Source: a virus. From it: 64,000 nucleotides of DNA. The DNA lies in the IMG/VR virus record IMGVR_UViG_3300047318_000482, positions 26,526 to 90,525 of that record; one strand, 5' to 3'. The translations under genes were made by a program, and so were the position numbers. Below are positions 13,650-46,960 of the stretch, one piece after another. Numbering within the stretch: the stretch's first letter is position 1; each line of letters starts with the position of its first letter. Below the pieces are notes generated by a model that was not told the DNA's origin, ran no database searches, and saw only the letters and a program-made list of their open reading frames with translations.

Positions 13650-14552
13650 TCAGAGGGCGATGTAGGCGGCGCGCCAGGTCACGCGCATGTGAGAGGTGTT
13701 CGTGTTGTCGAACGCGGTGAACCGGAGCTCGGACTGGCCGGGGGGCAGGGAGAACAAGTCGATGCGGGAGGCCGGGGAAAGGGTGGAGGAGGCGTTGCCG
13801 CCGTTCTCCCGGGTGACGGTGCGGTAACCGGGCCGGGTGTCGATCTCCACCCACTGGCCGGCCGCGAGAGAGAGGGTGGGCATGGCCAGGGAGCGCCCGG
13901 ACTCGGCGTGGATGACGGTGACGGTCGCGCACGGCCCGTAGATCCGCAGGATGGGCCAGGCGTCGGCGTCGCCGTCGTTGACGGCCCAGCCGGGCCGGTC
14001 CGCGGCCACCGTGCCGTCCTGCACGTAGATCGGGGCGACCACGGGAGCGGCGAATCCTCCGCCGGTGAGCCAGCCGATCGGCACGTCGGTGACGCTGTCG
14101 CTGTCCGCGTAAAAGACCGGGTCGTGAGCCAGGAACTCCATGTCCAGGGGCACGTAGCCGTGGACGACCTGCTTGTACTCGGGGTCGAGCTTGCGGGCGC
14201 GGACCGTGAGCTGCTTGACCGCCCGGCCGGGCCGCTTCATCCGCAGCGTCAGGCCCTGCCCGCCGACCAGACGGACCGCGGCCGGGTCGGTAGCAGCCTG
14301 GAGCGCTGCGACCAGGTCGTGGCAGGCTTCCGGATTGCCCGGGACACGGATCGCGGCATCGAACTGGATCTGCCTCGCTGCCCAGTAGTCGGGGCCGGCG
14401 AACGAGCCGTCCATGGACGGCTGGTCGATGTCGTTGTCCCGAACCGGGGGTCGGCCCAGGCCGGTGGTCTCGATGACCTGCACGTTGGTGCCGGCGCCGA
14501 TGACGACGCCTCCGATGTCGTACTGCCAGTCAGACAGCTCAGCCAGCGGCAC
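13650..14552 (-). CDS. Distal tail protein (siphovirus tail component)
   Basis: The 300-residue protein starts at GTG 14552, inside the end of the tape measure gene. The layout fits the Sipho_tail/Dit family: a short N-terminal beta segment, a middle containing PEYKQVVHGYVPLDMEFLAHDPVFYA, then a C-terminal galectin-like half with LxAGQWVEIDTRPGYRTV. Dit forms the ring that joins the tube to the baseplate. The position immediately after the tape measure is the canonical one. Confidence 0.8.
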   Translation of the reverse strand: MPLAELSDWQYDIGGVVIGAGTNVQVIETTGLGRPPVRDNDIDQPSMDGSFAGPDYWAARQIQFDAAIRVPGNPEACHDLVAALQAATDPAAVRLVGGQGLTLRMKRPGRAVKQLTVRARKLDPEYKQVVHGYVPLDMEFLAHDPVFYADSDSVTDVPIGWLTGGGFAAPVVAPIYVQDGTVAADRPGWAVNDGDADAWPILRIYGPCATVTVIHAESGRSLAMPTLSLAAGQWVEIDTRPGYRTVTRENGGNASSTLSPASRIDLFSLPPGQSELRFTAFDNTNTSHMRVTWRAAYIAL

Positions 14553-17500
14553 GGGCGGCCACCCCTCCCCTGCGGGCGCGGCGGACGCTGCGTCCGACCT
14601 GCGCTCCGATGTCCGATGCGGTGGCGCCGGTGCGGACCGCGGTCACGTTGACGTGGGTGTCGCCGCCCTGGCGGATGATGACGACGGCCCGGGACGCGGC
14701 GACGTCGGTGATGCCCAGGCCGAAGCGGTGCGCGATGTCGGCGAGCACAGGCAGGGCGGTGCGCCGCTTGGACGGGCTGAGGGGTACGTAGCCCTCCCCG
14801 TGCGTCTCCGGCTCCGCAAAACGCACGACGCCGCCCTGGGTGGCGTAGATCCCGGCCCGAATGCCGCCGTCGGCGTAGGAGAGGTGCTTGTTCGCGCGGC
14901 CCAGGTCGGCCAGGAACTGGGTGGCCCGGGTTCCGAGGCTCTTGCCGATCTGCCCCTTGGCTTTGTTGGCCACGGCAATGATCTCGTCCTCGCCGAGCGC
15001 GGTGGTGGCGGCGACGTCGTGGATGCCGGTCTTACTCGTCTTGATCGCGGCGATGATGGAGACGAGTTCGGACACCTCGTCGGCGGTGAGCGCGTTGTTC
15101 GCGGTCTTCGCCGCAGCGTTCGCCTTGGACGCCTTCGATTTGTCCTTGACCGCGGCGGCCGCGAGGTCCTGGGCGGCCTGGTCGTTCTCCGCGGCAAGCT
15201 GGGAGGCCAGATCCCCGAAACCTTCGGCGGCCAGCTTGGCCAGGTTGTCGGAGAACGTCTTGTTCAGGGTGTTGGCCTTGCCGAGCTGGCGGGTGTAGTC
15301 CTCGAGCGTGGCCTTGGCGGTCTTCTGGAGGTCGCGGAGGGCCTTGGACATGTCGTTGATGTACTTGGTGGAGCCGGTGGCCATCTTGTGGGCCAGCTTC
15401 ATGCCGTCCTCGCCCATCGCGGCGAGTGCGTCGGCGACGTCCCCGCCGGCGCGCCGGGCGACGGCCTCCAGGTCCTTGTTCCAGGCGGTGGTGGCCTTCG
15501 CGGCGGACCTCAGCTTCTTCTCGACCGCGGTGATGTCGAAATACTCGACTTCCTTGGTCGTCCACTTGCCCTTGCCCTTGGTCTTGACCTTCTTCGTCTT
15601 GTGACCGGACTGCCCTGCGTCGGAGGCGGAGTACAGGGAGCCGGTGGTGGGGTCGTAGCGCCAGTCGGTGACGGAGCCGTCGGCGTTCCACTCGATGCTG
15701 TTCGCGTCACCGCCGAGGCGGCGCACGATCTCCTCGGTGATGGCGCGGGAGCGAGGCCGCTTGGAGGGGGCGAAGGGGACGTAGCCCTCGCCCTGCGTCT
15801 CCGGCTCCCCCCACACGCGCCACGATCCGCCGGGGGCGATCTGCGCGACGTGGTTCTCGGACCCGCCCGCGAATCGGCGTACGCCACCGCGCTGAATGCC
15901 GCCGCGCGCGTAGTAGTCGACGACGCCGCCGTCCGCGTAGTCCCGCTTGGCGACCGCGATGCCGCCGCTGCCGGGGGCGCCGACGGTGGAGAACTTGGTG
16001 ACCTTGTTGGTCGTGATCGTGATGGCTCGGTCCCGCAGCGAGGCGATGGCGCGGGCCAGGGCGGCCACGTTGGCCTGCTGGCTGCCGGTGGGGACGGATA
16101 CAACGACCTTCTTGCCCTTGGTGCTCTTGATCTTGAATCCGAGGGCTTCCAACTGGGCGCGGGCCTGCGCGGTCGGGGCGTTGACGGTGATGGTCTTGCC
16201 CTTGGTGGACGCGACCTTCTTCTTCACACCCTCAAGTTCGACGATGGCCGCGGCCGTCCTGGCATCGACCGTGATGTCCTTGTCGTCCGGCGTCTCGGCC
16301 ATCTTCCCGATCAGCAGGTTGAGCTGTTCCCGGGCTGCCGCAGTCGGAGCGGTGATCTTGTATTCGCGGGTGCCGGGAATCAGCTCGATCTTGTAGCCGA
16401 GATCTTCCAGTTCCCGCTTCGCGTCCTCGCCCAGCGCGTCGACCTTGATGGTCTTCGCATTCGGCACCGCCTTGAACTCCGCCTGCACCGCCATCAGCTC
16501 GGCGAGGGTGGAGTCGACGCCGTGAGCGGACAGCAGGATGGACACCTGGCCGGGGATCAGGCCCATCGAGTCGGCGACCGTGGCCGCCTGCTCCGCGGTC
16601 AGCCCGTAGCTGCCCATCAGGTCGATCGCGGCCTTGCGGGACTTCTCCATCTCGCCGCTGGCTGCGGCCATCGACTCCTTGAGGCCCTTGCCCTGCGAGT
16701 CGGCGAATTCGTAGGCGGCCACCGCGGCGTTCGCGGAGCCGTCGGCGACGGTGTTGAGGGTGTTGAAGAGGTTCTGGCCGTTCTTGCTGGCGGTGTCGAG
16801 CTGGCCGTTCTGCTTCAGCAGCGCCTTGCCGTAGCCGTCGGCGTGGTCGACGCCGTTGGCCAGTGACTCGTTGGCGTTGGTGAGCGCTTCGTTCACCCGG
16901 GCCTGTGCGGCCTGGAGAGAGACGCTGCCGCCGGACAGCAAATCAAGGGCCTCGCGCAGGGCCCGGGTGCGGGAGTCAGCGTCCGCGGTCTTGTCGGCGA
17001 GCGCGCCGACAGCACCCTTGAGCCGGTCGTAGGCGCTGACCCCGTCGCTGGCGCCCTTGACGCCCTCGTTGTAGTCGCGGGCGTCGGCGGCCGCCTTCTT
17101 GAAGTCGCCGGACAGACCGGACAGCCCCTTGCGCAGGTCGTCGGCGGCCTGGCCCTGTTTGTTCAGGGCGTCGCCCCCGACACCGGACTCGGGGTCAAGG
17201 ACCCAGTCATGGTTGGCTGCGGCGACGTCCTCGAGGTGCTTTTGCAGCTTGCCGAGGCTGGTGCCCTGGTTGGTGTAGGCGTCGACGAGTTCCGACATCG
17301 GGACCTTCGCGGTCCGCGCGAGGTCGACGAGACGCTTCTGCCCGTCCAGCGTCGTCTTGATCTTCTGCTGCATCAGGTTCTCGGTGGCGATGGAGCGCAC
17401 CGAATCGTCCACGGCGCCGTTGGAGTCGCGCAGTGCCTGGGAGAGGCTGCTGATCTGCTGCTGGTGCTCGGCGGCGGCTTGGGCGGCCTGCTGTTGCTTG

Positions 17501-19809
17501 GTGGCGAGGAAGCCGAGCCCGATGGTGGCTGCGGTGATGGCCAGGCCCCAGGGGCCGCCGAGGGCGCCCATGAGGCCGGATCCGAGTCCGCGGGCGGCGG
17601 TCCCGGCTGCGGCGCCGATTCCGCGGAGGGTTCCGGTGAAGCCGGTGCCTGTGGTGGAGGCGGTGCGGAACGCGGCACCCATCCGGCCGATGATCGGGAC
17701 TCGGGTCTGGAGAACGGCGAACGCTGCGCCGTACCGGGTCAGGGATACGCCGGCCGCGGCGGCCAGTGACCGCTGTACGGCCATCTGCCCGCTCAACGAT
17801 CGGAAGGCGCCGGTGACGCTGCCGCGGACGGTGGTGGCGAGCGATGTCAGACGCGGCTGGATCCGGGAGGTCAGCATCGCGGCGAGGACGAACTGCTGGA
17901 TCGGGCCGGGCAGCGCCCCGAACGCGGAGACGAGTGTGCCGACGAGGTGGCCGATCGGGCCGAGGACGACGGAGACCGCGGATACGGCGGTCATGAGGAG
18001 GTCGAGGGCTCCGACGACGATGTCCAGGCTGGAGGCCACGGTGCTGCCCTCGCCGGTGAGGTCGCCGAAGGCGGACACGACGGGCTGGACGCCGTCGGCC
18101 AGGTTGCCGAGGACGTCCATGACCATCTGACCGGCGTTGATGATGAGGTGGAAGAAGTCGGCGATGCCTTCGCTTGCGAGGTCCTTGAACGGTTCGGCCA
18201 GGCCCTTGGCTTCGGACTTGATGCCGGCGAACTCGGCGCGGGCGGCGGAGAGCAGGTCCGGTCCGAAGACCGAGCCCAAGTCGTTCATGTGCTGGAAGAA
18301 CTGTTCGATCTTCGGGGTGGCGGTGGAGAGGCCCTTGGTGATGCCGCGGGTCAGGAACTCCAGGCCGGGCGCCATGCCCTGGTAGATCGTCAGGCCGGTC
18401 TGTTTGGCCTGGGTCTTGAGCTGGAGCATGGCGCCGGCGAGGCCCTTGCCCTTGGCGGCGGCGATCTCGGCGGCGGCGCCGGTGTCGGACACGGCGGCCA
18501 TGAGGTTGTCGAAGGAGTCGACGCCCTGGTGGGCGAGGGCGATGGCGCCGGACATGGCGGGCTTGCCCATGGACTGCTTGACGGCGGCCGCGAAGTCCTT
18601 CTGCGACATCTTGTGCTGGGCTTTGGACAGGCCGTCGATGACGTAGCGCAGGCCCTTGAAGCCGCCCTGGGCGTCCCACGCTTCGATGCCCATGGCCTTC
18701 AGGCCCTTGATCATCTGGGGGGTGGGGGCGGCCAGGTTGGCCATCATGCCGCGCAACGTCGTACCGGCGGTCTGGCCGAGGATGCCCGCCTTGCCGAGCA
18801 TGCCGACCGCGGCGGCGGTCTCGCGCATGCTGACGCCGAGCCCGTGGGCGACCGGACCCGCATATTTCATTGCGAAATAAATGTCAATAATGTCACCACT
18901 TGCGGCATTTGCCGTAGCGGCGAGGGTGTCGGCGGCCTGTCCTGCCTGGTCGGCGCCCATCCCGAACTGGTCCATCATGTCGCCGAGATACTTCGCGCTG
19001 TCGGCCGCGTTCACCTGGGCTGCGGAGGCGAGGATCAGGCTGGCCCGGGTGGAGGAGATGGCCTGGTCGGTACGGAAGCCGGCCTTGGCGAGCTCCACCA
19101 TGGCCTCGGCGGCATCCGCTGCGGTGGCGCCAGGGATGGAGAGGTCGTTGCCGAGCTGGTTCGCGGTCGCCGACGCGCGCTTCATCTGCATGGCGGTCGC
19201 GCCGGTCGTCGCCCCGAACGCGTTCATCGACTGCTGGAGCTCGCCGCCCATCTTCAGCAGCTCGGCGCCGCCGATGACGAACGCCCCGCCGGTAAGGAGG
19301 GTGGCCAGGGACATGAGCTGGCGCCGGGCGCGCCCGGACTCGTCGCCGATGCGGCGCAGGCCGCGGACGCTTCCGCCGCCGACCCGGGTCAGGCGGGAGT
19401 CGGCGCGGCGGGCCGCGTCGGCCAGGCGCAGCAGGTCCCGGACGGCGGTGTTGATCTGCCCGGACATGCTGGCGAGTTGCCGGGCGGTGGTGCGGGAGTG
19501 GTCGCCGAGGGTGTTGACGTGCCGCTGGGCGCGCTGCGCCGCGTCCCCGTAGCGGCCGAGATGGCGGGCCGCGGTCTGGGCGCCTGCTCCCAGCCGGGTC
19601 AGGTTGCGGCCTGCCGTACGGGCTTCGCGGCCCAGGGTCCGCAGGTGCCGGGTGGCCGACTCGGACGCCTGCCCGAGCTCCTTGACCTCGGTCTTGGCGG
19701 TACGGGCGGCGTTTGCGAGGGTCCGGGCGTGCTTCGCCGAGGACTTCAGGGACTGGGCGAGGTCGTTGCCGTGCCCGCGGATGTCCACGGACAGGTTCCA
19801 GTTGGCCAC
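14539..19809 (-). CDS. Tail tape measure protein
   Basis: The 1756-residue protein is the largest in the window. A helical N-terminus with heptads of the type HARTLANAAR is followed by a TP901-type tape measure domain (about 170-480), hydrophobic helices around 580-660, and long Ala/Lys-rich helices. Short repeats containing ITVNAPTAxARAxLEALG and GRVRFAGG-type elements occur near 1150-1330. Tape measures set tail length (about 1.5 angstrom per residue, so roughly 260 nm as an estimate) and help DNA entry. The order chaperone, tape measure, Dit is canonical. Confidence 0.92.
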   Translation of the reverse strand: MANWNLSVDIRGHGNDLAQSLKSSAKHARTLANAARTAKTEVKELGQASESATRHLRTLGREARTAGRNLTRLGAGAQTAARHLGRYGDAAQRAQRHVNTLGDHSRTTARQLASMSGQINTAVRDLLRLADAARRADSRLTRVGGGSVRGLRRIGDESGRARRQLMSLATLLTGGAFVIGGAELLKMGGELQQSMNAFGATTGATAMQMKRASATANQLGNDLSIPGATAADAAEAMVELAKAGFRTDQAISSTRASLILASAAQVNAADSAKYLGDMMDQFGMGADQAGQAADTLAATANAASGDIIDIYFAMKYAGPVAHGLGVSMRETAAAVGMLGKAGILGQTAGTTLRGMMANLAAPTPQMIKGLKAMGIEAWDAQGGFKGLRYVIDGLSKAQHKMSQKDFAAAVKQSMGKPAMSGAIALAHQGVDSFDNLMAAVSDTGAAAEIAAAKGKGLAGAMLQLKTQAKQTGLTIYQGMAPGLEFLTRGITKGLSTATPKIEQFFQHMNDLGSVFGPDLLSAARAEFAGIKSEAKGLAEPFKDLASEGIADFFHLIINAGQMVMDVLGNLADGVQPVVSAFGDLTGEGSTVASSLDIVVGALDLLMTAVSAVSVVLGPIGHLVGTLVSAFGALPGPIQQFVLAAMLTSRIQPRLTSLATTVRGSVTGAFRSLSGQMAVQRSLAAAAGVSLTRYGAAFAVLQTRVPIIGRMGAAFRTASTTGTGFTGTLRGIGAAAGTAARGLGSGLMGALGGPWGLAITAATIGLGFLATKQQQAAQAAAEHQQQISSLSQALRDSNGAVDDSVRSIATENLMQQKIKTTLDGQKRLVDLARTAKVPMSELVDAYTNQGTSLGKLQKHLEDVAAANHDWVLDPESGVGGDALNKQGQAADDLRKGLSGLSGDFKKAAADARDYNEGVKGASDGVSAYDRLKGAVGALADKTADADSRTRALREALDLLSGGSVSLQAAQARVNEALTNANESLANGVDHADGYGKALLKQNGQLDTASKNGQNLFNTLNTVADGSANAAVAAYEFADSQGKGLKESMAAASGEMEKSRKAAIDLMGSYGLTAEQAATVADSMGLIPGQVSILLSAHGVDSTLAELMAVQAEFKAVPNAKTIKVDALGEDAKRELEDLGYKIELIPGTREYKITAPTAAAREQLNLLIGKMAETPDDKDITVDARTAAAIVELEGVKKKVASTKGKTITVNAPTAQARAQLEALGFKIKSTKGKKVVVSVPTGSQQANVAALARAIASLRDRAITITTNKVTKFSTVGAPGSGGIAVAKRDYADGGVVDYYARGGIQRGGVRRFAGGSENHVAQIAPGGSWRVWGEPETQGEGYVPFAPSKRPRSRAITEEIVRRLGGDANSIEWNADGSVTDWRYDPTTGSLYSASDAGQSGHKTKKVKTKGKGKWTTKEVEYFDITAVEKKLRSAAKATTAWNKDLEAVARRAGGDVADALAAMGEDGMKLAHKMATGSTKYINDMSKALRDLQKTAKATLEDYTRQLGKANTLNKTFSDNLAKLAAEGFGDLASQLAAENDQAAQDLAAAAVKDKSKASKANAAAKTANNALTADEVSELVSIIAAIKTSKTGIHDVAATTALGEDEIIAVANKAKGQIGKSLGTRATQFLADLGRANKHLSYADGGIRAGIYATQGGVVRFAEPETHGEGYVPLSPSKRRTALPVLADIAHRFGLGITDVAASRAVVIIRQGGDTHVNVTAVRTGATASDIGAQVGRSVRRARRGGVAARAAG

Positions 19810-25250: not shown

Positions 25251-26300
25251 TCAGGCCCCGAGGACGGTCGCCGAGATGTGGATGTCCGGTACGTAGAGCA
25301 CCGGCATGCCGATCGCGGCGCCGCGGGTGTAGATCTGGACGGGGTTGTCGTCGACGTGGGTGACGACGACGATTCCGGGGGCCTCTTCGCGGGTGAGGGC
25401 CGGGTTGGTGCCGGAGGTGAACTGGGCTGCCTCGCGGGTGACTCCGAACTGGGTCTGCGCCCATTCGGAGGCGGGAACGTCCGGGATCATGATCCACTTG
25501 TTGTCGGGGATGACCCGCTGGTAGACGTCGTCGTTCCAGACTTGGACGTCGTAGATGACGATCGGCGGGAGGCCGTAGCGGGCGCGGACGGCGTCGACCT
25601 CGAGCGGGGACAGCGTGGTGCCCGGGTTGTTCGCGGCGTTCTGCCCGTAGAACGCGATCTGGTACTCCGCGTTCGCCGCGAGCATCGAGCGGGCGCGGCG
25701 GGAGGTGACGACCTCGCGCGGCGCGGGGGCGCCGGAGTCGATGAGGTAGTCGATCCAGGCCCGCTCGTCCGACAGGGGGGTGGCGGTGGGCTGGTCCCAC
25801 AGAACGGCCGCGGTCGGCATGTTCAGGGCGGGGACGTTCCAGTTGACGTCCAGGCCCAGGCCCGGCAGGGTCACGCTGCCGGTGGCCAGGAGCTGGCCGG
25901 CGGCGAGTTCCTGCGCGGTCTGGATGGACTCCACGTGCCGCTCGACGTCCGAGTACAGGAGGTCGATGTAGGCCTGGGTGTCGGCGCCGCGGCCGACGTC
26001 GAGGAGGATCTGGTCCATTTCGGAGACGGCGAGGGTCTGGCCGAGGGCGGGCAGCATGCCCTCGTTGACGACGCGCTCGGCCTGGCGCTTGGCCATGGCG
26101 GTCGGCGCGTCGTAGGCCCGGAACTTGGCGGCGTTGACGCGGCGCTTCGCGGACGTGGTGCGGAACTTGACGCCCTGGATCTGCGTCTCGGGCAGGACCT
26201 CGCGGGTCAGGCGGTAGTTCGCCGGGGTGTCCATCTGCCGGGCGAAGACCGTCAGGTCGGCGGCGTTGGTGTCGCGCAGAAGGAGCTCAAGGGCTTCCAT
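25251..26300 (-). CDS. Major capsid protein
   Basis: The 349-residue protein follows an AGGAGGAG box. It fits the phage capsid protein E family: an N-terminal arm, YRLTREVLPETQIQGVKFRTTSAKRR, then PTAVLWD- and PLSDERAWIDYLIDSG-type segments, and a C-terminal VVTHVDDNPVQIYTRGAA stretch. It would form the HK97-fold icosahedral shell. It lies directly after the decoration protein gene, which fits the E/D order seen in lambda-like phages. Confidence 0.88.
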   Translation of the reverse strand: MEALELLLRDTNAADLTVFARQMDTPANYRLTREVLPETQIQGVKFRTTSAKRRVNAAKFRAYDAPTAMAKRQAERVVNEGMLPALGQTLAVSEMDQILLDVGRGADTQAYIDLLYSDVERHVESIQTAQELAAGQLLATGSVTLPGLGLDVNWNVPALNMPTAAVLWDQPTATPLSDERAWIDYLIDSGAPAPREVVTSRRARSMLAANAEYQIAFYGQNAANNPGTTLSPLEVDAVRARYGLPPIVIYDVQVWNDDVYQRVIPDNKWIMIPDVPASEWAQTQFGVTREAAQFTSGTNPALTREEAPGIVVVTHVDDNPVQIYTRGAAIGMPVLYVPDIHISATVLGA

Positions 26301-30325: not shown

Positions 30326-31942
30326 TTAGCGGCGGCCGCGGAGGCGCTGGTCGGTGTAGTGCCGGGTGCCGAGGCCTTCCTGGGCGGGGTCGGCGAGCTC
30401 GGTCATCGCATGGACGGCGGCGTCCATGCGGTCGGGTGAGTCCATGCCGGGGATCCAGGTGACCATCTGGCCCTCCAGGCGGGGGAACTCGCCGAGGTGG
30501 TGGACGAGGCCTTGGGCGTAGAGCTGGGCAATCGGCTCGGCGCGCAGGCGTTTGCCCTGCTTGGCGTGCACCTCGATGATCGACGGCATGAGCAGGCCCT
30601 TGGTCTCCCCCTGCTGGGCAAGGGTCTTCCACGCCTGCCGGATGATCTGCTGGGCCATGTCGCCGCCGAAGTTGGCCTCGACGACGATGGCATCGGCCTG
30701 GTACTCGATGGCCAGGCGGCAGGCTTCGATGCCCCAGGTGTCAGCGCCCATGCGGCCGGATGCATCGGCCAGCAGGTACAGGTGTCCTTCGCTGTTGCGT
30801 CCTGCCGCGCACAGGCCGGCTTCGTCGTTGCCGTCGCCTTCACCGCCGGCGTGGTCCACGGCCACGATGGTCCGGGTGAGGTCGATGCCGCGGAATGCCA
30901 TGGGGGTGATGCGGTTATCGGTGATCCACGGCCATTTCCACACGCCGCCCTCAAGCGGGCGCGGTTTCTGCATGTAGAGGGACCACCAGACGCGTTCCCC
31001 AACCGCGCGGCGGATCTTCTCGAGGGCTTTGCTGCCGTAGCGGATGGGCCACAGGGGGCGGCCGATCTCGCGTCCCAGGGCGTCGTCGTCGCTGTCGGCG
31101 ATGGCGGGCAGGTCGAGGATGGTCCAGTCGTCGGCGTCCTCGCCCGCGAGGATGCGTCCGGCGAGGTCCTGTTCGTGCCAGCGGGTCTGGATGACCAGGA
31201 TGCTGCCGCCGGGTTCGATGCGGGTGTTGAGGACGGACGTCCACCAGTCCCACAGGCGGCGCCGCATGGTCGGGGACTCGGCGTCCGCGGCGTCCTTAAT
31301 TGGATCATCGACAACTGCCAGGTGGGCGCCCTTGCCGGTGAGGCCTCCGCCGACGCCGGCGGTGACGAGGCCACCTTCGAGGCGTTCCCCGGTGTCGGGG
31401 TCGGCGAGGTCGAACCGGTTCGCAGCCTTGGAGCCGGAGTGCAGGGCGAGGCCGAGCTGGGGGCCGTAGGAGACGATCGCGTCGCGGATCCACCGGCCGT
31501 GGTCGTCGGCCAGGTCCGCAGAGTATGAGGCGATCATGACGCGGTGGTCGGGGTGTTTCGACAGGTACCACAGGGGCGCCCACCGGGCGGCACGCCGGCT
31601 CTTCCCGTGCCGTGGGGGCATGGTGATGAGGACCTTGCGGGGCCGGCCGCGGGCGATGTCGCGGAACACCTGGTCGATCAGGTCCAGGTGGCGGGCCTGC
31701 TTCTCCTTGCCGTCGGTGAGGATCGCCGACATGGAGCCCGGGGACCGCTTCAGCGCCATGTCCCGTTCGACTCCGGCCAGGACGGTGCGGAGTTCGGGGC
31801 TGGCGTACAGGGCGATGCGGCGGCGCTGGGCACGGTTCAAGCGCCGGTACTGGGCGACGGTCTGGAGGAGTTCCTCCGCCTCGCGGACGATGTCGCTGTC
31901 GTCCTGCCGCGGGTGAGACTCAGGTGTCGCCGCGGTCGTCAT
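30326..31942 (-). CDS. terL: Terminase large subunit
   Basis: The 538-residue protein has an ATPase domain with Walker A PPRHGKS at 109-115 and Walker B HLAVVDDP at 207-214, and a RNase H-type nuclease domain from about 355 with acidic residues AVDHA (363) and VVEAN (422) and a C-terminal PDRMDAAVHA motif. TerL cuts the concatemer and pumps DNA into the prohead. The start ATG overlaps the small-subunit gene by 23 nt. Confidence 0.93.
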   Translation of the reverse strand: MTTAATPESHPRQDDSDIVREAEELLQTVAQYRRLNRAQRRRIALYASPELRTVLAGVERDMALKRSPGSMSAILTDGKEKQARHLDLIDQVFRDIARGRPRKVLITMPPRHGKSRRAARWAPLWYLSKHPDHRVMIASYSADLADDHGRWIRDAIVSYGPQLGLALHSGSKAANRFDLADPDTGERLEGGLVTAGVGGGLTGKGAHLAVVDDPIKDAADAESPTMRRRLWDWWTSVLNTRIEPGGSILVIQTRWHEQDLAGRILAGEDADDWTILDLPAIADSDDDALGREIGRPLWPIRYGSKALEKIRRAVGERVWWSLYMQKPRPLEGGVWKWPWITDNRITPMAFRGIDLTRTIVAVDHAGGEGDGNDEAGLCAAGRNSEGHLYLLADASGRMGADTWGIEACRLAIEYQADAIVVEANFGGDMAQQIIRQAWKTLAQQGETKGLLMPSIIEVHAKQGKRLRAEPIAQLYAQGLVHHLGEFPRLEGQMVTWIPGMDSPDRMDAAVHAMTELADPAQEGLGTRHYTDQRLRGRR

Positions 31943-42828: not shown

Positions 42829-44034
42829 ATGACGACCTTCCCGGAGCTGCTTCGCGGACTGCGCATGGAAGCCCGCATGTCGCTGGCTTGCCTGGCGCGG
42901 CAGGTGCACTACGACCGCACGTCTCTGCACCACTTCGAGTCCGGCCGCAGACCAGCGCCACTCGAGGTCGCGGAGCTCGCCGACGAGGCGCTGGCCGCCA
43001 ATGGCCGGCTCGTCGCAGCGTGGACCCGGGAAGACGTAGAGCGGCGGGAGGCTGCCGCCACGCACAGGGTGCGGGCCGCAGCGTTGGCCATGTCGCGGGA
43101 TCTGACCGCCTTGGCGGACCTGGACATCGCGGAGCTGCAGGACGGGGTGGCCGTGACCGCGGTCGACTACCTGGCCTCTCCCCCGGGTCCGATGATGGAC
43201 CGTGCGCACGTGCTGCGCGGCGAGGCGTTCGAGCGGATCCGGTCCGGGCATCACCGGCCGGCTGACCGTTCGGACCTGTACGTCGCTGCCGGACGCCTGT
43301 CCGGGGTGTTGTCGTACGCGCTGCTCGACATGGGCGACTCAGATGAGGCGCTCGAGCACGCCACCGCGGCGGGCCGGTGCGCCGAGTTCGCCGGAGATGC
43401 GGAGCTGTCCGCGTGGGTGGCCGGCACGAAGTCCCTGATCGCCCGCTTCCAGGGCGACTACGGGCGCGCGCTGGACTACGTGCGAGACGGATACCAGTGG
43501 GTCGGGGCCGGGCACGGCACCGGCGAGGCACGCCTTCGGTGCGGTGAGGCCCAGTGCCTCGCCAACTTGGGCGACAGCCGGGCCGCGAACCACGCCCTGG
43601 ACGGCGCCGAAAACGCCCGGGAGCGCATCCGCCGACCGGACACCCTGGAGGGCCTGTTCGGGTTCTCGAGAGCGAAGCAGTCCTACTACGCCGGATCCTC
43701 GCTGATCTGGCTGCAAGGCGGCCACGACGCGGAACGCGCGGCGCGGGAAGCCCTCGAGGCGATCAGCCTGTGGCAGTCCGGTCCGGTGGAGGAGCGGTCG
43801 CTGGACGACGAGCGGCTGGCGTTCATCTACCTGGCCACGGCCCGGGTGCAACTCGACGACGTGGAGGGTGCGGCCGAAGCCCTGGCACCGGTGCTGTCGT
43901 TGCCAGTGGAAGACCAGATTTCGTGGATCGTGAAGCGGATGGACCGGGTGGCGGGAATGCTCAGCGCACCCCGGTACACGGGGAACCGGACTGCGTCCGA
44001 GACTGTCGAGAAGATCAACGCCATCGCGGCGTGA
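42829..44034 (+). CDS. XRE-family regulator with TPR-like sensor domain
   Basis: The 401-residue protein has an XRE helix-turn-helix at residues 4-60 (LRGLRMEARMSLACLARQV and a following RTSLHHFESGRR) and then about 330 residues of paired helices typical of tetratricopeptide repeats. XRE-TPR proteins in Streptomyces and other Gram-positives often read small peptides or partner proteins. Its place at the head of the replication region suggests a lysogeny or copy-number switch. AGAGGAGGAA precedes ATG 42829. Confidence 0.85.
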   Translation: MTTFPELLRGLRMEARMSLACLARQVHYDRTSLHHFESGRRPAPLEVAELADEALAANGRLVAAWTREDVERREAAATHRVRAAALAMSRDLTALADLDIAELQDGVAVTAVDYLASPPGPMMDRAHVLRGEAFERIRSGHHRPADRSDLYVAAGRLSGVLSYALLDMGDSDEALEHATAAGRCAEFAGDAELSAWVAGTKSLIARFQGDYGRALDYVRDGYQWVGAGHGTGEARLRCGEAQCLANLGDSRAANHALDGAENARERIRRPDTLEGLFGFSRAKQSYYAGSSLIWLQGGHDAERAAREALEAISLWQSGPVEERSLDDERLAFIYLATARVQLDDVEGAAEALAPVLSLPVEDQISWIVKRMDRVAGMLSAPRYTGNRTASETVEKINAIAA

Positions 44035-44709: not shown

Positions 44710-44790
44710 ATGCTGAGGGTACCCGTACCACCCAGTCTGTCGACAAGTAGCCCCCACATGATCCTCCGCACGGCGGAGGCCAGGGGATGA
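44710..44790 (+). CDS. 26-aa leader peptide with hairpin sequestering the initiator RBS
   Basis: ATG 44710 follows AAAGGGAGCC and encodes a 26-residue peptide that ends MILRTAEARG and overlaps the initiator start as ATGA. Within it CCTCCGC (44763-44769) pairs with GCGGAGG (44773-44779) over a 3-base loop. The GGAGG of the right arm (44775-44779) is the initiator's Shine-Dalgarno, seven bases before its ATG. Ribosomes on the leader would open the hairpin. This is a translational switch by sequence; its role in copy control is inferred. Confidence 0.7.
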   Translation: MLRVPVPPSLSTSSPHMILRTAEARG

Positions 44791-46049
44791 GCGTCTCCCG
44801 TATTCGCGGCATCGCGAAGCTGCTCGAGCAGGTGCGCCAGTTGGACGCTGCCGACGAGACGTTCGAGGTTGAAGCTGAGGACGACGTCCCGTTCGTTCAG
44901 CTCGGGCACTGGGTCGCCTTGTCTGGCGTCAGCGCCGGCGCTCTCGCGCTGTACTGGATGCTCGCCCTGCACCTGAACCGGACCCGCGGTGACCGCTACG
45001 TATGGCCGACGACTGCCGTCCTCGCCCACATGCTGGGCTACTCCCGCGGCGACAAGATCAAGAAGTTCGCCGACGAGCTGGCCGCGATCGGTGCTATCCG
45101 GGTGATCCCAGTGCCCGACGTCAAGGGACCGCAGAAGCGCAACGTCTACCGGCTACGGCGCACGCCTCCCGAGGGCTACACCGGCCCCCTGTCCCTGGGA
45201 GCGTTCTACGCGGAGCTCAGCGAGGCGTATGAACAGGAAACCGCAGGTGACGCCGTGTGCCCCGAAACGGGGGTACACGTGACCCCCGAAACGGGGGGTG
45301 ACGTAGCCCCTCAAACGGGGGGGCACGTGGCACCCCAAACGGGGGGAGGAACTACAAGAACCACTAACTACATGAAGGAGAAGGACGCGCCTACGGCGCG
45401 TAGCGCCGCTGACGGCCGTAGGCCTCCTACAGGTAGTAGGGGCTCGAGGGCTGGCGGCTCCGCCGCGTCCAGCAAGACGAAGCCCGATCAACTCACCCCG
45501 AGACAGCGCCAGCAGGCCACCGCGTTCTTCCAGTCGCTGCCCAAGCAGCTCGCCGACCTCGTACCGGCGAACCCGCCCGGCAACCTGAAGGCGGCAGTCC
45601 TCGAGGCCCTGGCCGTCGATCGGCCGGAAGCCCGGACCGCAGAGCAGCTCGTCACCTACCGGCTACTCCCGAAATGGAACGGGCACTACGCATCCAAGGA
45701 CCAGGCCGGACCCTTGGAGAAGCCCGTTGGCGTCCTCATCACGATGCTGCACCGGGATGCCGAGTGCGGGGACCCGCGCTGCGACGAGCGGACGAACGTC
45801 GACACCGGGCAGCCGTGCACTTCATGCGAGCAGCGGGCCGTCAACCAGCGTGCCGACCGCGTTCTGGAGGCTGCGGCAACAGCCCCACGGCCCCCGGCAG
45901 ACTCGAGGCCGTCGGCGCAGCAGCAAGCGAGCACGCCCCGTACCGTCGTCTTGCCGCCTCCTGGAGGCCCGGGGGGCGAGTGGGCGGCGCCCAACAGTGA
46001 ATACCGTGCCATCCGGGCCCTGACGTCCGGGCAGAAGCGACACCGATGA
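44787..46049 (+). CDS. Replication initiator-like protein with winged helix and intragenic iterons
   Basis: The 420-residue protein has an N-terminal winged-helix domain (about 35-130, with SAGALALYWMLALHL and a second helix in TTAVLAHMLGYSRGDKIKKFADELAAIG). A repeat linker (157-188) follows, then a basic Gly/Ser linker (190-225) and a helical C-terminal domain with CxxC-type Cys (ECGDPRCDE and CTSCEQRA, about 330-350). Winged-helix initiators with a flexible linker containing origin iterons resemble lambda O and DnaD-like phage initiators. The next gene is a DnaB-like ATPase. No relaxase or rolling-circle motif is present. Confidence 0.75.
   Translation: MSVSRIRGIAKLLEQVRQLDAADETFEVEAEDDVPFVQLGHWVALSGVSAGALALYWMLALHLNRTRGDRYVWPTTAVLAHMLGYSRGDKIKKFADELAAIGAIRVIPVPDVKGPQKRNVYRLRRTPPEGYTGPLSLGAFYAELSEAYEQETAGDAVCPETGVHVTPETGGDVAPQTGGHVAPQTGGGTTRTTNYMKEKDAPTARSAADGRRPPTGSRGSRAGGSAASSKTKPDQLTPRQRQQATAFFQSLPKQLADLVPANPPGNLKAAVLEALAVDRPEARTAEQLVTYRLLPKWNGHYASKDQAGPLEKPVGVLITMLHRDAECGDPRCDERTNVDTGQPCTSCEQRAVNQRADRVLEAAATAPRPPADSRPSAQQQASTPRTVVLPPPGGPGGEWAAPNSEYRAIRALTSGQKRHR
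45255..45350 (+). repeat. Four 24-bp iterons inside the initiator gene: likely replication origin
   Basis: Four tandem units at 45255-45278, 45279-45302, 45303-45326 and 45327-45350 each encode V-x-P-[EQ]-T-G-x-x and contain CCCCGAAACGGGG or a close variant, an inverted repeat around AAA. The following 40 bp (45351-45390) is less GC-rich than its surroundings, and palindromic stretches lie at 45388-45440. This matches the iterons-plus-unwinding-region plan of lambda-type origins. Confidence 0.7.
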
Positions 46050-46960
46050 GGGGGATCATGAGCGAGAGCGCAGCCCAGAGTGCGGGCTCCGGCCGCATCA
46101 GCGACCTGATCGAAGGGGTCCTGGACGACATCGAAGCCGCGGGCTCCCGGGAACCACGACAGAAGCCGAACCACCTCCGCGGGATCTCCACCGGGTTCAC
46201 CGAACTGGACTCCCTGACCGGCGGACACCTCGGCGGCCGGCTGATGGTCATCGCGTCCAGGCCGGGCCTTGGACGGACGACCCTGCTGACGGACATGTGC
46301 CGACAGGCGGCCATCCAGAACGACGTCCCCACGGCCGTCTACACGCTGGAGGAGAGCCGCGAGCACTTCATCACGCGCGTCAAGTCCGCGGAGGGCCGCA
46401 TCGCCCGGCACCACATCCACATGGGCAACATGACCGAAGACGACTGGGCCCGACTCGGCAGGATCATGCCGAAGGTGTCCGCCGCCCCACTGTGGATCAA
46501 GTCGCCCAGCAGCCTGACGATGCGGCAGCTGGCCTCCGAGGTCACCGAATTGGTCCAGGATCACGGGGTGCGCCTGGTGGCAGTCGACGGGATCCAGGAC
46601 ATCCGGCCCGAGAAGCGCAGCGACCTCCGGGAGCGCGAGGTCGGCGACGTCGTCCGCGACCTGAAGACCCTGGCCCGCGAGCTGGACGTACCGATCGTCG
46701 CGACCAGCCATCTCAACCGCAGCCCCGAGCAGCGCTGGGACAAGAAGCCGATGCTGGACGACCTGCGCGAGTCGGGGGCCATCACCTTTGCCGCAGACGT
46801 GCTCATCCTTCTCCACCGCGAGGACGCCTACGACCGCGAGAGCCCGCGCGCCGGCGAAGCCGACTTCATCGTGGCCAAGCACCGCAACGGTCCCACCGCC
46901 ACGATCACGACGGCCTTCCAGGGGCACTACGGACGGTTCGTCGACATGGCGGAGACCTGA
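46046..46960 (+). CDS. DnaB-like RecA-fold ATPase (helicase C-terminal domain only)
   Basis: The protein has 304 residues, or 300 if it starts at ATG 46058 behind GAGGGGG. It contains the DnaB helicase C-terminal core: GRLMVIASRPGLGRTTLL (Walker A), a YTLEES strand, and a Walker B of the type RLVAVDGIQDI, then TSHLNRSPE and ATTAFQGHYGRF-like ends. The DnaB N-terminal domain is missing. The Walker A lysine is replaced by Arg77 (GLGRTT). It overlaps the initiator stop by ATGA, so both are produced together, giving a replication pair. Confidence 0.8.
   Translation: MRGIMSESAAQSAGSGRISDLIEGVLDDIEAAGSREPRQKPNHLRGISTGFTELDSLTGGHLGGRLMVIASRPGLGRTTLLTDMCRQAAIQNDVPTAVYTLEESREHFITRVKSAEGRIARHHIHMGNMTEDDWARLGRIMPKVSAAPLWIKSPSSLTMRQLASEVTELVQDHGVRLVAVDGIQDIRPEKRSDLREREVGDVVRDLKTLARELDVPIVATSHLNRSPEQRWDKKPMLDDLRESGAITFAADVLILLHREDAYDRESPRAGEADFIVAKHRNGPTATITTAFQGHYGRFVDMAET

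Follow-up and report, generated by a model that had tools for sequence, protein, structure and literature searches.

The stretch of DNA analysed here (the window, 64,000 nucleotides) belongs to an IMG/VR record of 90,525 bp, which is similar in size to the 90,435-bp Streptomyces plasmid-phage ZL12 and contains terminase, capsid, tape-measure, tail and endolysin genes. In the window, genes for tape measure, capsid E, terminase, tail fibre and endolysin occupy positions 1-40000 (e.g. 14542-19809, 25254-26300 and 30329-31942). Tailed-phage structural genes beside a plasmid-type replicon define a phage-plasmid, and the 90-kb tailed-phage record is related to ZL12. The replicon is built around an initiator gene, rep, with a HTH_31/TPR regulator gene upstream of it (42829-44034). 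Similar helix-turn-helix regulators stand ahead of rep in several relatives (L005, L006, L007, L015), and nuclease genes (HNH or GIY-YIG) directly adjoin it in several (L006, L010, L014, L021). The features of the locus are as follows.

44787-46049, plus strand: replication initiator gene (rep), 420 aa, an open reading frame with tblastn relatives
44904-45242, plus strand: N-terminal winged-helix domain, residues ~40-152, presumed iteron binder (AlphaFold pLDDT ~80)
45255-45350, plus strand: four 24-bp iterons with CCCC..GGGG palindromes at 45260-45272, 45284-45296, 45307-45320 and 45333-45344
45348-45386, plus strand: A-rich spacer of low G+C (46%; 18 A of 41 bases), candidate unwinding element
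45387-45407, plus strand: optional hairpin unit H1, GCGCC-TAC-GGCGC-GTA-GCGCC, two alternative stems (compensatory changes in alignments A1/A3)
45414-45424, plus strand: hairpin H2, GGCC-GTA-GGCC, a perfect 4-bp stem in 37/42 sequences
45432-45439, plus strand: near-invariant core GGTAGTAG (alignment A3), encoded by rare codons
45454-45466, plus strand: hairpin H3, GCGGC-TCC-GCCGC (C-GNA-G on the minus strand), perfect stems in 39/42
45486-45881, plus strand: C-terminal domain with four invariant cysteines (AlphaFold pLDDT 85, helical)
46046-46960, plus strand: ATPase with a DnaB_C domain and no DnaB N-domain, neighbour of rep (Pfam DnaB_C)

Relatives of the initiator were found by tblastn in 46 plasmids, including pFP1, pCQ3 and pCQ4. 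It is homologous to pFP1 Rep (29% over residues 56-357, E=4e-15), and the annotation of pZL12.82, the element-bearing gene of ZL12, records similarity to pFP1.15c. The best Foldseek matches of the N-domain are the DnaD N-domain 2v79 (E 4e-3) and the Rep-DNA complex 5kbj (E 1.4e-2), both with a Foldseek probability of 1.00 and E values above 0.001. AlphaFold predicts a disordered linker at residues 155-233, encoded by the iterons, the spacer and the hairpin element, and a sequence-only reading of this DNA, which had placed the repeats in a linker between a winged helix and the C-terminal part, fits that model of two domains and a linker. The C-domain, which presumably interacts with the hairpin element or the host replisome, had no match in Pfam, PHROG, PDB sequences or PDB folds (Foldseek). 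Searched as a whole, the initiator gave nothing in Pfam beyond a weak DUF match, and a sole, weak match in PHROG, to a family of unknown function. One relative, L053, has a different N-domain and does match O-like PHROGs (E 3e-9).

The next gene had been read as a DnaB-like ATPase, and its DnaB_C domain (Pfam E=5e-73) agrees with this. Its place in a conserved layout did not hold: among the element-bearing loci compared, the helicase gene is nearby only in the window and in L033, and we rejected it as part of the origin system because this neighbour is not kept. The closest plasmid relatives of the ATPase (L055, L056) adjoin other genes; the one on a linear plasmid (L055) sits near a DciA-family gene.

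Iterons and codon choice

Tandem Repeats Finder (45260-45347, period 24, 3.7 copies, score 106) and the translation bear out the four tandem, in-frame 24-bp units with inverted repeats first noticed from the letters, and each unit encodes V-C/T/A-P-E/Q-T-G with the frame kept, as had been noted. The first two palindromes are exactly CCCCGAAACGGGG, and CCCCNAAACGGGG occurs in just these two copies, units 1 and 2, in the whole 90.5-kb record. The palindromes of unit 3 (CCCCTCAAACGGGG) and unit 4 (CCCCAAACGGGG) differ from CCCCGAAACGGGG and are thus variants, not copies. The stretch after the repeats is less GC-rich, as described before (46% G+C over ~40 bp, against 66% upstream).

A repetitive peptide linker whose coding DNA merely follows the protein would account for the unbroken frame, the V-x-P-E/Q-T-G repeat and the predicted disorder. 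However, only 2 of 200,000 synonymous recodings (same peptide, codon usage of the window) kept the CCCC..GGGG palindrome in all four units, periods of 22 bp, which are not a multiple of 3, occur among the iterons of relatives, and in four plasmids the origin module lies outside genes. This explanation is contradicted on all three counts and was discarded as having next to no probability. The iteron codons are not forced by the encoded peptide; the Gln codon is CAA both times, although CAA makes up 6% of Gln codons.

Homologues carry palindromic iterons of 21-24 bp at the same place, with iteron sequences that vary along with the N-domain. Tandem arrays of this length stand just upstream of the hairpin element, in the same orientation, in 25 of 32 element-bearing loci, with palindromes that vary between loci, including GCCGCACCGATGCGGC, GGCGTCATGGGTGACGCC, GGTGACACAGATGTCACC, GGGACTGTCAGTCCC and TTCCAGGATTCTGGAA. 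Homologues lacking the repeats, named beforehand as evidence against an origin here, thus exist to the letter; in substance they do not speak against it, because they have other palindromes at that position.

A shared hairpin element downstream of the iterons

About 40 bp beyond the iterons lies a hairpin element of ~80 bp (45387-45467), missed in the earlier reading, with one occurrence in the record. H1 has the general form GCGCC-TNC-GGCGC-GTA-GCGCC and is missing from some replicons (e.g. L005, L050-L053). The loops of H2 are GTA, GGA or GCA in 37/37 perfect stems, while the stems vary (GCCC/GGGC, GTCC/GGAC), the pair at alignment columns 35/43 being C-G, G-C or T-A; four further sequences read GCC-GNNA-GGC. 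Between the core GGTAGTAG and H3 there are 15-24 variable bases. H3, generally GCGGC-TNC-GCCGC, has TNC loops in 36 of its 39 perfect stems, which is GNA on the opposite strand. In the alignment of 42 sequences, 91% of cells pair and 41 cells have changed on both sides, a covariation above all 500 shuffles. DNA folding energies are only mildly better than those of shuffles (z -1.1 to -2.1), so that it is covariation and loop grammar that carry the structural claim. Rfam gave no match for the element.

The motif CGNAG is common to all four hairpins, two per strand, and it is quite conceivable, if a little short of an even chance, that the element is a duplex binding site made of CGNAG inverted repeats, which a dimer of the C-domain or of a host factor would bind without the DNA ever becoming single-stranded. 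Inverted repeats that serve as dimer sites should covary just as much, and the weak folding scores agree with such a site. On the other hand, the loop length is fixed at 3 (or 4, as GNNA) and the middle base is free while the stems change, a pattern more in keeping with C-GNA-G mini-hairpins than with a fixed consensus in duplex DNA.

No DnaA-like boxes were found near the element in the window, and they are sporadic in relatives. A DnaA-trio reading of GGTAGTAG, prompted by TAGTAG, stayed an idea, with no boxes to support it. We found no description of the shared element in the papers searched; an earlier mention in the pFP1 and pZL12 papers is possible.

By blastn, the element is present in 59 Streptomyces plasmid records, circular and linear, of 28 kb to 1.26 Mb (the union of three queries at E<=0.1), and as a query on its own it matches Streptomyces plasmids with quite different iterons. 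It is also present in phage ZL12 and in at least 9 viral contigs (8 IMG/VR contigs by exact pattern). A covariance model run on 101 Streptomyces genomes reached E<=0.01 in 11, and the match was strong in about 7 of these. When the model was applied to 148 genomes of the class, the seed genome was joined only by two weak matches (E 7e-4); these look spurious, and occurrence outside Streptomyces was set aside. The element was not found in Amycolatopsis L061, which has a related N-domain. On the Streptomyces contig G071:C1, element and iterons lie at 25667-25767, ~25 kb from one contig end, with an inverted copy at 9593954-9594054 (L043, L044), an arrangement suggestive of a linear-plasmid origin within terminal inverted repeats.

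Where it is in frame, the element appears frozen at the level of codons. For the same residue, codon identity is 0.78, where the codon usage of the adjoining C-domain predicts 0.38, whereas the C-domain itself has 0.55 against 0.51 expected; the rare codons AGT, AGG and GGT are among those kept. In pFP1 (L009), NBC_01310 (L020), pSLUN2 (L057) and NBC_00161 (L058), rep encodes both domains but not the element, which lies together with iterons and spacer 0.7-3.7 kb downstream of rep, outside long frames. Repeats and element outside rep in these four plasmids indicate that they act as DNA. A role in the rep mRNA, in translation control or message stability, would be in keeping with the presence of the element in the rep transcript in most loci, where it could fold as RNA, but the displaced, out-of-frame copies beside iterons and the lack of an Rfam match make it very improbable. 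In CP042280 (L015:2141-2562), the rep frame is broken across iterons and element with both domains still open, owing to either a sequencing error or a genuine split.

Exchange of initiator domains with origin parts

Across 23 non-redundant replicons, N-domain similarity follows iteron similarity (Mantel r=0.86, p=2e-4), whereas the C-domain follows neither iterons (r=0.04) nor N-domain (r=0.03). The N-domain and the iterons are mostly neighbouring sequences, and physical linkage could explain part of this coupling. L058 is the only clear break of that linkage: its origin lies 3.7 kb from rep, its N-domain is of the L022 type (E 1e-53), as are its iterons (GGTGACGCACACGTCACC, against GGTGACACAGATGTCACC in L022). 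An L022-type N-domain with L022-type iterons at that distance indicates that the pairing is not just linkage.

The element keeps company with the C-domain. Of 34 plasmids whose match includes the C-domain, 31 have the element by blastn and two more (L064, L065) by the model, against 1 of 12 plasmids matching the N-domain only (Fisher p=3e-7 on the BLAST counts, a value that overstates independence because the plasmids are related). In L066, whose linker contains palindromic 22-bp iterons, the C-domain is of another kind and the element is absent. The match of window DNA to L045 and L004 runs from the start of the gene to 45476-45478, and that to L050, L005, L051, L033 and L010 from 45401-45411 to ~45860; the two sets of matches overlap solely in the hairpin element. 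Such alignments show initiators to be chimeras jointed inside the hairpin element, and the comparisons as a whole show iterons that go with the N-domain and a hairpin element that goes with the C-domain. Plasmid partition, dimer-resolution or other maintenance sites are often near rep, and ParA genes lie near the origin in some relatives (L022, L058); an element of this kind, beside the iterons by chance, is nevertheless improbable, given its fixed order and orientation relative to the iterons and its co-occurrence with the initiator C-domain.

A probable theta-type origin and its possible mechanism

The best overall explanation of the locus, and judging from sequence comparison a highly probable one, is that 45.25-45.47 kb is a theta-type origin inside the initiator gene of a Streptomyces phage-plasmid. 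The repeats can be read as origin iterons because the gene is related to the rep of pFP1, whose RepA binds iterons. The start of replication had been placed at about 45.25-45.45 kb with the repeats as the core of the origin; iterons in the initiator gene are retained from that proposal, but the conserved origin extends to ~45467, with the strongest conservation in the hairpin element rather than in the repeats. Cumulative GC skew, suggested as a check, does turn at 44-46 kb; the turn is a maximum, of unusual sign, at the place where genes change from mainly minus-strand to mainly plus-strand. Since it coincides with divergent gene orientation, it is not independent support, and skew was dropped as evidence for the origin.

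Iterons inside an initiator gene are an arrangement already known. In lambda O, they lie in the gene between the DNA-binding and C-terminal parts, with a low-GC stretch adjoining. The window likewise has iterons within the initiator gene, between two predicted domains, but it lacks Pfam or PHROG membership of the O families, has an additional hairpin element, and is followed by a DnaB_C ATPase that is not conserved rather than by a P-type loader. The earlier term lambda-O-like therefore describes the way of working, and not the family or the neighbour. The location of ori-lambda inside the initiator gene is also cited in PMC7157519.

The window is no closer to lambda O than to the origins of staphylococcal RepA_N replicons. 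According to PMC5703833, the winged-helix N-domain of pSK41 RepA_N binds Rep boxes inside rep, the C-domain is separate and binds DnaG, and the origin-encoded linker is dispensable; in the natural chimera pPR9, N-domain and origin were swapped and the C-domain was kept. As in the window, the origin in rep of these replicons (pSK41, pPR9) encodes the linker between domains. In contrast, the window initiator has no Pfam match to RepA_N (PF06970) at E<=1, its C-domain fold is not DnaD-like by Foldseek, and the passages of PMC5703833 consulted mention no shared hairpin element. Closer to home, the Streptomyces theta plasmid pFP1 (L009) and the plasmid-phage pZL12 (L027) have homologous initiators, and in both the hairpin element comes after iterons that are palindromic or tandem; the iteron sequences differ, and the origin of pFP1 is ~0.8 kb downstream of rep instead of inside it. 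pFP1 RepA binds its own iterons in vitro, as stated in PMC3583192. The N-domain/iteron part of the mechanism thus has direct precedent in pFP1 (PMC3583192) and pSK41 RepA_N (PMC5703833).

The coupling described above and the biochemistry of pFP1 suggest that the N-terminal winged-helix domain would bind the palindromic iterons as dimers. The adjoining low-GC spacer may then open, after which the hairpin element would serve the C-domain and/or the host primosome, its C-GNA-G mini-hairpins, once single-stranded, possibly marking the place for helicase or primase loading. Palindromes II and III of Streptomyces telomeres form hairpins with GCA loops and sheared G:A closure, bound by Tap (PMC4513846), and are of the same GNA loop type closed by C-G; the hairpin element differs from them in belonging to an internal origin, in circular as well as linear replicons, where no terminal protein was seen. 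It is tempting to propose, tentatively and as something we hold doubtful, that C-GNA-G mini-hairpins and GGTAGTAG constitute a common strand-specific single-stranded DNA signal with the hairpin grammar of telomeres, read by a probably zinc-binding C-domain or by the host primase/polymerase it recruits, and acting as a loading dock for recombining N-domain/iteron cassettes.

What this adds is a second, shared part of the origin, constant where iterons and DNA-binding domains have been swapped. Through it, hairpins of an origin are connected with the GNA-loop hairpins of Streptomyces telomeres, and it provides a covariance model for finding such origins, from 28 kb plasmids to 1.26 Mb megaplasmids, in phage-plasmids and at a chromosome end. 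Moreover, it offers a testable explanation for changes of specificity, and perhaps of incompatibility, in Streptomyces replicons that keep their link to the replication machinery.
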